From contig NZ_JAASQL010000001.1 in NCBI RefSeq assembly GCF_011762155.1, positions 1,954,251 to 2,018,250 on the forward strand: DNA of 64,000 nucleotides. Direction: 5' to 3'. Within the stretch, counting starts at the first letter, position 1. Each line of letters begins with the position of its first letter. This document shows, in pieces, positions 1 to 15,238 of this stretch. Position numbers and translations under genes: made by a program. This DNA is from Wenyingzhuangia heitensis (GTDB taxonomy: Bacteria > Bacteroidota > Bacteroidia > Flavobacteriales > Flavobacteriaceae). The notes below the pieces were generated by a model that was given only the letters and a program-made list of their open reading frames with translations, made no database searches and was not told the DNA's origin.

Positions 1-19
1 TAGATACATATTAAATCAA

Positions 20-115
20 CATAAAACAACCTTCAGTTGGGGAACTGAAGGTTGTTTCAAACTAACTAAACTTAAACTATACTAAATTCGAAAAAATTAT
101 TTTTCTAACTAACTA
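20..115 (-). ncRNA. candidate small RNA, copy A
   Basis: Tandem twin of the candidate RNA at 203-299. It runs on the minus strand from the predicted start near 115 to the hairpin at 24-57. The two RNAs would differ by only one or two nucleotides, an arrangement known for sibling small RNAs in other bacteria. No expression evidence is available from sequence. Confidence 0.42.
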
Positions 116-125
116 TAATAGTATT

Positions 126-142
126 TACAAGTACTGTGCCAA
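126..142 (-). promoter_or_regulatory. sigma54-like promoter, copy A
   Basis: Same 17-base minus-strand motif (TGGCAC, 5 bp, TTGT) as at 310-326, in the first repeat copy. The predicted transcription start is near position 115. Conservation in both copies fits a functional element, although the duplication may simply be recent. Confidence 0.5.
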
Positions 143-202
143 AAACTATTGCTGAGTTTATAATTTTAAGAAAGTATTTATTTTAGATACATATTAAATC
201 AA

Positions 203-299
203 CATAAAACAACCTTCAGTTGGGGAACTGAAGGTTGTTTCAAACTAACTAAACTTAAACTATACTAAATTCGAAAAAAAATATTTTTCTAACTAACTA
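203..299 (-). ncRNA. candidate small RNA, copy B
   Basis: Putative transcript of about 97 nt between the sigma54-like promoter (310-326) and the hairpin at 207-240 on the minus strand. The hairpin has a 15-bp perfect stem with a CCCC loop, followed by a short U-rich stretch. The body is AU-rich with repeated UUAGUUAG-type motifs and no ORF. The same arrangement is present in copy A. An alternative is that the hairpins are only duplicated terminators of lipA. Confidence 0.45.
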
Positions 300-309
300 T
301 AATAGTATT

Positions 310-326
310 TACAAGTACTGTGCCAA
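310..326 (-). promoter_or_regulatory. sigma54-like promoter, copy B
   Basis: On the minus strand the sequence TTGGCACAGTACTTGTA matches the RpoN consensus YTGGCACGRNNNTTGCW. It has TGGCAC at -24, TTG at -12 and exactly the canonical spacing; the usual C of the -12 GC is a T. The predicted start is near position 299, reading away from lipA into the repeat. The motif is directly visible; RpoN dependence is inferred. Confidence 0.55.
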
Positions 327-331
327 AAGTA

Positions 332-1252
332 TTAGTTAACGTGTTTTTTTGCATGATAAGAGGATCTAACAAGGGCAGAACTTTCTACATGTTTAAAACC
401 TAGTTTTTTAGCGTATATTTCATACTCTTTAAACAACTCAGGAGTTATAAACTCTTTTACCGGCAAATGTTTTTTACTAGGTTGTAAGTATTGTCCTAAA
501 GTAACAACGTCAACATTTGCATTGGCTAAATCTCTTAAGCTTTCAAAAACCTCTTCTTTAGTTTCTCCTAAGCCTAACATAATTCCTGATTTGGTTCTGC
601 GTTGTCCTTGTTCTTTTAAATATCTTAAGACCTCTAAACTTCTGTCATATTGTGCTTGTATACGTACTTCCCTGGTTAAACGTCTTACCGTTTCTAAATT
701 ATGAGAAATTACTTCTGGGGCAGCTTTAATCAACCTGTCTATATTAGCTGTGTTTCCTTGAAAGTCTGGAATCAATGTTTCCATTGTTGTGTTTGGGTTA
801 GCTCTACGTACAGCAGCAATTGTTTCTGCCCAAATAATAGAACCACCATCTTTTAAATCATCTCTATCTACAGAGGTTAACACGGCATGCTCAATTTTCA
901 TAATTTTAATAGATCGGGCAACCTTTTCAGGTTCATCCCATTCTACAGTTTCTGGTTTTCCTGTTTTTACACCGCAAAATCCACAAGAACGTGTACAAAT
1001 GTTTCCTAAAATCATAAAAGTAGCAGTACCATCACCCCAACATTCTCCCATATTTGGGCAACTACCACTTGTACAAATTGTATTTAACTTGTACTTGTCT
1101 ACTAAACCTCTTAGCTCGGTGTATTTTTTACCTACAGGTAATTTTACACGCAACCAATCTGGTTTTTTCTTTCCTACAGGAATTGTTCCAGGGTTTGTTG
1201 TATTTGTTTTGCTTGGTAATACAGATTTAAATGTGGATGTTTCCGTACTCAT
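332..1252 (-). CDS. lipA: lipoyl synthase
   Basis: Radical SAM enzyme that inserts two sulfurs into octanoyl groups on the lipoyl domains of 2-oxoacid dehydrogenases and glycine cleavage H protein. At 306 aa it has the family's usual length. Both clusters are visible: the auxiliary motif CTSGSCPNMGEC near residues 60-71 and the radical SAM motif CTRSCGFC near 86-93. GLGETKEE and a C-terminal arginine/serine tail (SSALVRSSYHA) are also typical. A Bacteroidota -7 box (TATCTTTG) at 1273-1280 gives it its own promoter. Downstream lies the duplicated hairpin element. lipB is not adjacent. The assignment is secure. Confidence 0.96.
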   Translation of the reverse strand: MSTETSTFKSVLPSKTNTTNPGTIPVGKKKPDWLRVKLPVGKKYTELRGLVDKYKLNTICTSGSCPNMGECWGDGTATFMILGNICTRSCGFCGVKTGKPETVEWDEPEKVARSIKIMKIEHAVLTSVDRDDLKDGGSIIWAETIAAVRRANPNTTMETLIPDFQGNTANIDRLIKAAPEVISHNLETVRRLTREVRIQAQYDRSLEVLRYLKEQGQRRTKSGIMLGLGETKEEVFESLRDLANANVDVVTLGQYLQPSKKHLPVKEFITPELFKEYEIYAKKLGFKHVESSALVRSSYHAKKHVN

Positions 1253-13525: not shown

Positions 13526-13543
13526 AGTTGGTTGTAAATTCTC

Positions 13544-15238
13544 TTATGAAAACGTAACTGTGTGTGCTGTTTCTGTAGTGTAAGAAGAGGATAAAAGAGT
13601 GTCTACATAAATCCATTCAGAGGTTACTTCTGTATTGGTAAATGTAGTCATCACAAAACCTCTTTTAGAAGAGTTAAAGTATGTTAAATCATCAATTAAA
13701 GTTGTCAGAGCACCTTCAAAAGCAGTTAAGGTTTCTGCACTAGGATTTCCTCCTAAATATTCTTCAAAACCAGGAGAGCTAATACTTGCAGTGGCAATTT
13801 CTATACCCACTTCGGTTTTGTCTTGTTTAACCAATTTACTGCTCCATCCGTTGTGAGTGTCTCCAGCAAGGGTAACTATTTTTTTACTACCCAAAGTATT
13901 GTAAATAAGTTCTCGCTCTGCATAATAACCATCCCAAGCATCTAAATTATAAGGTAGTATTGAATTGATTCTTGTTAATTCTTCTGTAGTTAACGTTGGA
14001 TCATTTTGTTGTAATCTTACTTTTAACGTAACCAATTCAGCTAAAATATCATTAAAATCAGCAGTTCCAAAAGCCATTAACAAATCTGCCGGAATGTTCA
14101 TTTTTCCCATTAAAACTTGTTGTCCTAATACTTGCCATTTGTTTGTGTTAGCGCTTAATTGATTGAACAACCAATCACGTTGTGTAGTTCCCAATAATGT
14201 TCTGTTACTATCTGTAACTGCTGCTTCAAAAGCTGTCCCGTCTAATCCTGTAGCAGTAAAATAATCAGCAATATTTAATTGTTTGTCACGTCCAATAACA
14301 CGAGTGTCTAACATAATTAGGTTGACCAAATTACCAATGTTAAAAGTTCTGTAGATTAAACTCTCGTTGTCTGCTTCTAATTTGGTAAAAGGCAAATATT
14401 CACTGTAGGCTTTTAAAGCTGCGTTTTTTCTAGTTTCAAAAGGCCCTTCACTAGCCGAATGATTTTCAGCTCCATCTTTGTAAGTATCGTTTGCTACTTC
14501 ATGATCATCCCAAACACAAATAAAAGGTTTTTTTTGATGAGCCAATTGCAAGTCAGCATCTGTTTTGTATTGTTTATAGCGAGTTCTATAATCTTCTAAA
14601 GAAACAATTTCGTGTTCTGGTTCGTGAAAACGATTTAAAAAAGCATTCTCATCATTAGCTCCATAACCACCTGCTTGGTATTCATAAAAATAATCTCCTA
14701 AATGTACAATAATATCAGCTTCTGATTTTGCCATGGCATTGTATACGTTAAACAAACCTGCCTGGTAGTTTGAGCAAGAACAAACAGCTAATTTTATACT
14801 ACTTGCATTTTCTGGTAACGTAATGGTTTCTCCAACAACAGATATTTGTTGGTCTTCTTCATTTATAAAACGATAATAAAGTTTTAATCCTTCAGTAAGT
14901 TCTGTCAATTCAATAGCAAGAGTGTTGTCTCTTTCTGCATCTGTAACAATAGCACCATTTCTAATAATATCATTAAATTGAGAGTCTGTAGCAACTTCCC
15001 ATAAAATTTCTTTGTTAGCTTGGCTGTATCTTGTCCAAATAATCACTTTTGATGATGTAGGATCAAAACTACCTACACCGTGTTGAAAGTTGTTATTGGT
15101 AAAGTTGCTGGTATCAATTGTATTATTGGTCAAATCATCATCACTACAACTAATAAAGTTGGGAGCTAGAATAATACCTCCTGTAGCCATTAACGCATTC
15201 TGAATAAACTGTCTTCTACTTTTGTTTGGGGTTGCCAT
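13544..15238 (-). CDS. PhoD-like phosphodiesterase/alkaline phosphatase, Tat-exported
   Basis: 564 aa. The N-terminus SRRQFIQNALMATGG is a twin-arginine signal, followed by NFISCSDDD, which looks like a lipid-attachment cysteine (Tat lipoprotein). An N-terminal beta domain (about 50-145) precedes the metallophosphatase domain with VHLGDYFYEYQ, CVWDDHEVANDTYKDG (metal ligands), VLGQQVLMGK and VTLAGDTHNGW. PhoD enzymes are Ca/Fe-dependent phosphodiesterases and phosphatases used for phosphorus scavenging. Single-gene unit; no Pho-box-like repeat was noticed upstream. Confidence 0.92.
   Translation of the reverse strand: MATPNKSRRQFIQNALMATGGIILAPNFISCSDDDLTNNTIDTSNFTNNNFQHGVGSFDPTSSKVIIWTRYSQANKEILWEVATDSQFNDIIRNGAIVTDAERDNTLAIELTELTEGLKLYYRFINEEDQQISVVGETITLPENASSIKLAVCSCSNYQAGLFNVYNAMAKSEADIIVHLGDYFYEYQAGGYGANDENAFLNRFHEPEHEIVSLEDYRTRYKQYKTDADLQLAHQKKPFICVWDDHEVANDTYKDGAENHSASEGPFETRKNAALKAYSEYLPFTKLEADNESLIYRTFNIGNLVNLIMLDTRVIGRDKQLNIADYFTATGLDGTAFEAAVTDSNRTLLGTTQRDWLFNQLSANTNKWQVLGQQVLMGKMNIPADLLMAFGTADFNDILAELVTLKVRLQQNDPTLTTEELTRINSILPYNLDAWDGYYAERELIYNTLGSKKIVTLAGDTHNGWSSKLVKQDKTEVGIEIATASISSPGFEEYLGGNPSAETLTAFEGALTTLIDDLTYFNSSKRGFVMTTFTNTEVTSEWIYVDTLLSSSYTTETAHTVTFS

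Follow-up and report, generated by a model that had tools for sequence, protein, structure and literature searches.

Downstream of the lipA gene of Wenyingzhuangia heitensis lies a run of nearly identical repeats, and the locus raises the question of whether each repeat specifies a small RNA (sRNA), from which promoter it would be transcribed, and which mRNAs it would act on. A preliminary description of the window (the whole 64-kb stretch of DNA analyzed here) had proposed a duplicated, sigma54-dependent sRNA lacking an open reading frame (ORF), and we followed up this proposal with genome comparisons, RNA folding, and searches for targets.

A tandem array between lipA and a convergent permease gene

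The window contains two tandem units with a start-to-start spacing of 183/184 bases (Table 1), identical over their initial 96 nt and 98% identical over the next 54-nt stretch. Both carry TGGCACAGTACTTGT as promoter motif and a stem of 15 perfect base pairs capped by a 4-nt loop (at 207-240 and 24-57; 17 pairs once the flanks are included), such that the coordinates, identity, and stems given in the preliminary description are all confirmed. Its portrayal of the sRNA as a pair of twins is right as to repetition and wrong as to number, which is one to five among the genomes below and at least three here, with a third copy at G000:C1:1953989-1954111 (G000 being the W. heitensis genome), to the left of the window. 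A run of 97 Ns (G000:C1:1954154-1954250) abuts window base 1 and lies within the repeat array; the actual copy number may therefore exceed three, and the assembly may have collapsed at this point.

The product of 332-1252 matches Pfam Radical_SAM above the cut-off and LIAS_N below it, and we take the gene to be lipA (lipoyl synthase), as the preliminary description did. The array is flanked by lipA, on the same strand, and by a convergent gene for an FtsX-family permease, so that its promoters point at the start of no neighboring gene; the final hairpin sits at the end of the permease gene.

Table 1. Array features in the W. heitensis window and the basis on which each was assigned.
Feature	Position	Strand	Basis or remark
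lipA (lipoyl synthase, presumed), syntenic upstream neighbor of array	332..1252	-	Pfam Radical_SAM
lipA-proximal array unit	184..328	-	repeat comparison
Sigma54-type promoter TGGCAC-AGTAC-TTGT, lipA-proximal unit	311..325	-	predicted start ~299, from spacing
Predicted sRNA, ~96 nt, lipA-proximal	203..299	-	fold z -8.08, without ATG ORF
5′ stem-loop, lipA-proximal unit	261..301	-	folding; first two bases may precede start
Single-stranded linker TAGTTTAAGTTTAGTTAG.., proposed seed	243..260	-	folding; complementarity to susC starts
Terminator hairpin, lipA-proximal unit	205..242	-	folding
Second array unit	1..144	-	repeat comparison
Sigma54-type promoter, second unit	127..141	-	predicted start ~115, from spacing
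Predicted sRNA, ~95 nt, second copy	20..115	-	folding, ORF scan
Single-stranded linker, second unit	60..77	-	folding
Terminator hairpin, second unit	22..59	-	folding

All seven genomes searched within the genus have the array, with one to five units each and 25 in total: three in W. heitensis, five in G001, four each in G002, G003, G004, and G006, and one in G005. In five of the other six genomes of the genus, related arrays were recovered with BLAST; the sixth, G004, has an array in its lipA stretch, the four units of which are cut by a contig end. Terminators are mostly alike within a genome, and between species their sequence differs while pairing is kept; the last unit deviates in G000, G001, and G006. 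Our hairpin finder missed G003_1, with a mismatched stem, and G004_4, at the contig end, and both rows were dropped. The search of family genomes that the preliminary description recommended is thus favorable to it, with a copy number of 1-5, stems re-paired between species, and relatives in other genera, described below.

Structure and coding capacity of the predicted RNA

In each predicted RNA, an exposed AU-rich linker of ~18-22 nt separates a 5′ stem-loop from a terminator hairpin, a layout found in all nine own-genus units folded singly; the 5′ stem also has equivalents in other genera. None of 200 shuffles equaled the fold z-score of the lipA-proximal RNA. The linker, in which UAGUU is repeated across the genus, is unpaired when the RNA is folded up to the terminator and partly paired when the 3′ flank is included. 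The short U-tract noted previously is real for the two window copies; the tract is longer in the third copy and in most own-genus units.

A peptide-coding repeat was ruled out, as 34 RNAs share no conserved ATG-initiated ORF, the longest being 23 amino acids and most RNAs having none in a scan that counted ATG starts and left out GTG and TTG. The linker motif was likewise dismissed as a general part of terminators, being missing from the nine other terminators found in the window. The Qrr and CrcZ families of sigma54-dependent RNAs are represented in Rfam, and a known Rfam RNA was also ruled out: all matches on the window, with the Qrr and CrcZ models included, fall below the gathering score. 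The highest-scoring of these is the match to BTnc049, an sRNA of Bacteroides, at 26.9 and 22.4 bits for the two copies relative to a cut-off of 81.9 (E 0.013 and 0.14 in a 420-nt search of window 1-420, minus strand), and probably reflects chance.

A conserved sigma54-type promoter motif

Two TGGCACNNNNNTTG sites (pattern TGGCAC-N5-TTG) occur in the 64-kb window, both within units, compared with an expected mean of 0.26, and two of 100 shuffled windows have at least two. The pattern TGGCNC-N5-TTGC with one mismatch allowed is not enriched across the window (3 observed vs 4.25 expected); the motif is therefore weak on the window alone, and the case depends on conservation. When own-genus copies were located by their linker alone, with the promoter unused, all 25 from the seven genomes proved to have TGGCA[C/T]-N5-TTG at most 90 nt upstream, the last base of the first element being C in 21 and T in four. 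The preliminary description had pointed out that the window promoters have T where the -12 element should have C; at this position T or A (once G) is usual in the genus, and C follows TTG in eight of 24 promoters outside it. Its central claim, a sigma54-type sRNA without an ORF, is supported by these promoters together with the ORF scan.

The sigma54 apparatus is present, with one strong match to RpoN (PF04552) in each of the 16 genomes tested, and we infer that the array is transcribed, by sigma54-RNA polymerase. W. heitensis has three high-scoring sigma54-activator genes (PF00158), the number also reported for Flavobacterium psychrophilum in PMC9723704, according to which the sigma54 regulon of that species takes in chaperones, proteases, and gliding and exported proteins along with a single putative sRNA, Rfp36. 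Chaperone and TonB genes have been reported as sigma54-linked in Flavobacteriia (PMC12316311).

Upstream of the -24 element, 13 of the 24 promoters from outside the genus have a direct repeat, TAAC-N6-9-TAAC (loci L111, L167, L178, L179, L183, L190-L192, and L203 among them), for which 500 shuffles averaged 0.36 and never exceeded 4. The repeat is a candidate activator site; it is absent from all 25 own-genus promoters.

Related units in other genera

Related units follow lipA in G008, G009, and G031, and a promoter-plus-terminator scan of both strands at 80 named lipA loci yielded ten matches that without exception share the strand of lipA and lie downstream of it, including those in Tenacibaculum agarivorans, Tenacibaculum aiptasiae, and a Lutibacter MAG. 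A core-motif scan ignoring the promoter gave nine matches, again all downstream of lipA, and all nine have the promoter, a result that is not independent, as the core motif was learnt partly from the same loci. The consensus across genera is GAAACAAAG-loop-CTTTGTTTTCATT..ATTATTTGAGTTAGTTAA-terminator. At 17 of 23 other-genus lipA loci, we saw no unit and found instead, at most 500 nt after lipA, a GFGRIGR-motif gene, which by eye is glyceraldehyde-3-phosphate-dehydrogenase-like.

For wider searches we built R1, an RNA-only covariance model of 12 sequences that excludes the promoter and does not draw on L155, L158, L172, G008, or the own-genus units. The stems were misplaced in MAFFT alignments A2-A4, the last of which gave no RNAalifold consensus, so alignment A5 was padded by hand with N in the variable loops; 98.4% of its cells are paired and 20 are double-change cells, compared with 4.9 in shuffles, counts that lean toward structure because of the manual alignment. 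In 299 family genomes, R1 gave at least 18 matches in at least 12 genomes at E≤0.01, which are lower bounds, since the best 14 of thousands of candidates per genome were scored and weak matches were lost. Twelve of these 18 have the promoter 26-28 nt upstream (four of the 12 are model members or lie on the same contig as one, and eight are new sequences), and in 13 of 18 lipA is inside the fetched locus. R1 has no match in the own-genus genomes G000 and G001, whose linker differs. Among 40 named genomes, at least ten have a match at E≤0.1, with at least 11 matches, of which L195-L197 and L203 are units by eye; three were already known from lipA loci.

Retention of the hairpin with loss of the promoter, which the preliminary description named as evidence against itself, is not the rule, and the exceptions are six R1 matches. 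L193 (G031) and L194 (G281) are third copies in which the RNA is kept and the sigma54 motif is missing at its usual place. At the position of a start, L193 has TAAATTTG, which fits TAnnTTTG, the box of the main sigma factor according to PMC9723704, and suggests a switch of sigma factor. The other four (L184 and L186-L188) are weak or at gene ends, and look like things other than the sRNA unit.

Linker complementarity at SusC translation starts

A search for TTGAGTTAGTTA in ten genomes found 16 sites, three of which (L227, L231, and L239) are antisense and just 5′ of start codons, with perfect 12-nt complements that start 23, 24, and 37 nt, respectively, before the starts of genes that by eye are SusC/RagA-type; the L239 gene is also among the TIGR04056 matches of its genome, G297 (L281). 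G297 carries an sRNA with the same core (L183/L233), and we found no lipA-linked unit in F. columnare (L227) or F. terrae (L231), both of which have the target-like site. The remaining sites comprise one in the sRNA itself (L233), four same-sense, two intergenic, and six coding or unclear.

In W. heitensis, 16 SusC genes score above the curated cut-off, and six have ACTAAC between -45 and +15 of the start, compared with none of 66 other genes and with five of 349 other genes from the window and a further 380 kb sampled (Fisher 1e-6); two of the six sites (L251 and L255) are just within the coding region. The mean longest complementary run is 7.38 at SusC starts vs 5.61 elsewhere, which none of 200 shuffled linkers matched, and duplex energies are -10.9 vs -8.6, with one of 200 shuffles as extreme. 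For G297, the longest run is 8.13 vs 6.18 (15 vs 11 genes; one of 200 shuffles) and TAACT is present at ten of 15 SusC starts and none of 11 others, with ACTAAC not significant (4/15 vs 0/11, p 0.09); for G031 the run is 7.40 vs 5.20 (five vs five genes; six of 200 shuffles), and ACTAAC is at none of the five SusC starts. Outside the family, ACTAAC is at none of 11 SusC starts in G053, a twelfth locus giving no start codon.

These comparisons are made on fetched loci, which represent 15 of the 18 genes above cut-off in G297 and a minority of the G027 genes, and on automatically chosen start codons, some of which (e.g., L246) are doubtful. Because the SusC genes are paralogous, their leaders cannot be counted as independent cases, which inflates the statistics. 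The reversed linker gives differences of the same sign and smaller size (0.62 vs 1.77 in G000, 1.24 vs 1.95 in G297, and 0.80 vs 2.20 in G031), such that part of the SusC signal is composition. Nor do linkers clearly fit their own genome's SusC set best: foreign linkers score below the native one in G000, but the G031 linker scores 8.27 on the G297 set (own, 8.13), and the G297 linker 8.80 on the five G031 genes (own, 7.40). Exact 12-mer complements of the linker are not enriched in number within the genus. We ruled out complementarity as a trait of all exported proteins, since 71 signal-peptide-like genes, unlike the SusC genes, do not stand apart from the 278 other genes compared (p 0.10, with a difference as large for 19 of 60 shuffled linkers). 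In the window, we note a 9-nt linker complement before the start codon of a minus-strand gene at 13543-15238, with start MATPNKSRRQFIQ..CSDDD.

Same-sense linker copies in 3′UTRs

Our first idea about targets, that they would be marked by exact AACTAACTAAAC sites, failed because same-sense copies prevail among the matches listed. At least 11 such sites lie outside the array in the genus, and seven of 11 fetched (L206-L210, L213, and L214) are same-sense, 19-143 nt past a stop codon and near a hairpin, whereas the other four follow a hairpin or are located in or at coding sequence; in G000, exact sites are fewer than in a reversed-pattern control (49 vs 127). The four same-sense TTGAGTTAGTTA sites (L228, L229, L238, and L242) are similarly placed, 13-54 nt past a stop codon with a hairpin nearby. 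By Pfam, same-sense GTTTAGTTAGTT or TTGAGTTAGTTA precedes hairpins after SusD genes at L206, L207, L228, and L229, and copies also follow genes for a TonB-receptor-type barrel (L208), an efflux protein (L238), and an MFS transporter (L209); the L242 product is barrel-like by eye and has no Pfam match. Same-sense linker copies near 3′UTR hairpins occur in several genera, and are also seen at L184 and L187. Antisense repression does not explain these copies, for which a different partner or additional siblings must be invoked. In two Flavobacterium genomes (L230 and L241), seemingly between the same pair of genes, an intergenic TTGAGTTAGTTA is followed by a hairpin; we noticed no sigma54 motif there by eye, and these loci may represent an additional sRNA that shares the seed.

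A proposed role and its alternatives

Starting from what was computed, an array that is conserved, structured, headed by a promoter motif, and free of a conserved ORF, we favor, with confidence somewhat above an even chance, the interpretation that it encodes sibling trans-acting sRNAs, each with its own RpoN promoter and intrinsic terminator, whose linker may block SusC/RagA-type mRNAs. A sigma54 signal, acting with one enhancer-binding activator, would fire every promoter of the array, RNAs of ~95 nt would accumulate, and tandem copies would raise both dose and speed. The open linker would then pair with the translation-initiation region of susC, at ACTAAC sites near the start codon, and hinder initiation; for this targeting step, judged from complementarity, we see the balance as close to even, tipping slightly in its favor. 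The outcome would be a lower load of large outer-membrane barrels in response to a signal that in F. psychrophilum may correspond to protein-quality and envelope stress and to growth on blood agar.

We speculate further that the lipA-linked sRNAs are a sigma54 envelope-stress arm silencing SusC importers as a class, a counterpart of sigmaE with RybB and MicA that relies on an unrelated sigma factor, and that the seed is re-used in the 3′UTRs of susD and other outer-membrane-protein mRNAs, which would release siblings or soak up the sRNA and so tie importer output to its brake; this broader scheme is tentative, and we think it rather less likely to be right than wrong.

The 3′UTR copies lend themselves to a different account, in which the UAGUU-rich linker of sigma54-driven RNAs is a sponge titrating an RNA-binding protein that recognizes the same 3′UTR motif. 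Same-sense copies before hairpins after outer-membrane and transport genes would fit, as would the several copies of the unit, the repeated UAGUU, and the lack of the motif in the nine other terminators found in the window; the enrichment of complements at SusC starts would be left unexplained, however, the 3′UTR cases are few and may not exceed chance, and the partner protein is hypothetical. We consider this account unlikely. Of low probability, too, is that the RNAs are sigma54-dependent sRNAs with other targets, and that the SusC complementarity is a translation-start element with a different purpose. G027 speaks for this, having ACTAAC at three of 15 SusC starts and no unit after lipA, no R1 match in the 94 kb searched, and no place among the R1 matches listed; its sRNA may have escaped detection, or else these ACTAAC sites have a different role. 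The SusC leaders may share descent, and the linkers show no clear preference for their own genome's set. Yet with 14 of thousands of candidates scored per genome, G027 may hold an undetected copy, and shuffled linkers seldom reach the difference seen with the real ones, doing so in 0, 1, and 6 of 200 cases in the three genomes compared.

It is far less probable that there are no independent transcripts, the array being a repeated lipA 3′ region with terminators and a coincidental sigma54 motif. The units do lie immediately after the stop codon of lipA and share its strand, and in W. heitensis the convergent permease gene does end at the last hairpin, but the promoter accompanies all 25 linker copies and, at a fixed distance, 12 of 18 matches to a model that excludes it, and between species the hairpin sequence is more variable than the promoter.

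Relation to known regulatory RNAs

Which polysaccharides flavobacteria can take up depends on their SusC/SusD importers, and a stress-controlled RNA brake on the SusC class, if real, would link envelope state to glycan uptake. The Flavobacteriaceae would also gain a tractable sRNA family, with a promoter, a structure, synteny, and candidate targets. Sigma54-type sibling sRNAs are best known from Proteobacteria, and the array extends them to Bacteroidota. The Qrr RNAs of Vibrio are several siblings with sigma54 promoters, like the lipA-linked units, but are Hfq-dependent, act in quorum sensing, and are encoded at separate loci in another phylum. CrcZ and CrcY of Azotobacter and Pseudomonas are likewise sigma54-dependent siblings with a repeated motif, and differ in being protein decoys, which in pseudomonads titrate Hfq/Crc. 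MicA and RybB, the sigmaE envelope-stress sRNAs of Escherichia coli that shut down porin and other outer-membrane-protein mRNAs, offer a parallel if, as we propose, an envelope-stress sigma factor drives sRNAs against outer-membrane-protein mRNAs, although the sigma factor, the porin targets, and the phylum differ.

Among the matches listed in a search of open-access titles and the starts of abstracts, subscription journals being outside its scope, we found no description of the lipA-linked family. The main text of PMC12316311 does not mention sRNA or small RNA, and that of PMC9723704 does not mention lipA or lipoyl. The latter does describe Rfp36 of F. psychrophilum, a putative regulatory RNA with sigma54 motif SM4 in the same bacterial family, which we liken to the array sRNAs by description only. 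The nearest functional parallel is FopS of Bacteroides thetaiotaomicron, with RbpB: according to PMC11697453, FopS is also a set of multicopy paralogous Bacteroidota sRNAs with a single-stranded part and a terminator, and it reportedly represses the mRNAs of SusC-like transporters close to their start codons. Its 14 copies are spread over several loci and have sigmaABfr or PM2 promoters (PMC11697453), whereas the units linked to lipA are arranged in tandem and have sigma54-type promoters as well as a 5′ stem-loop.
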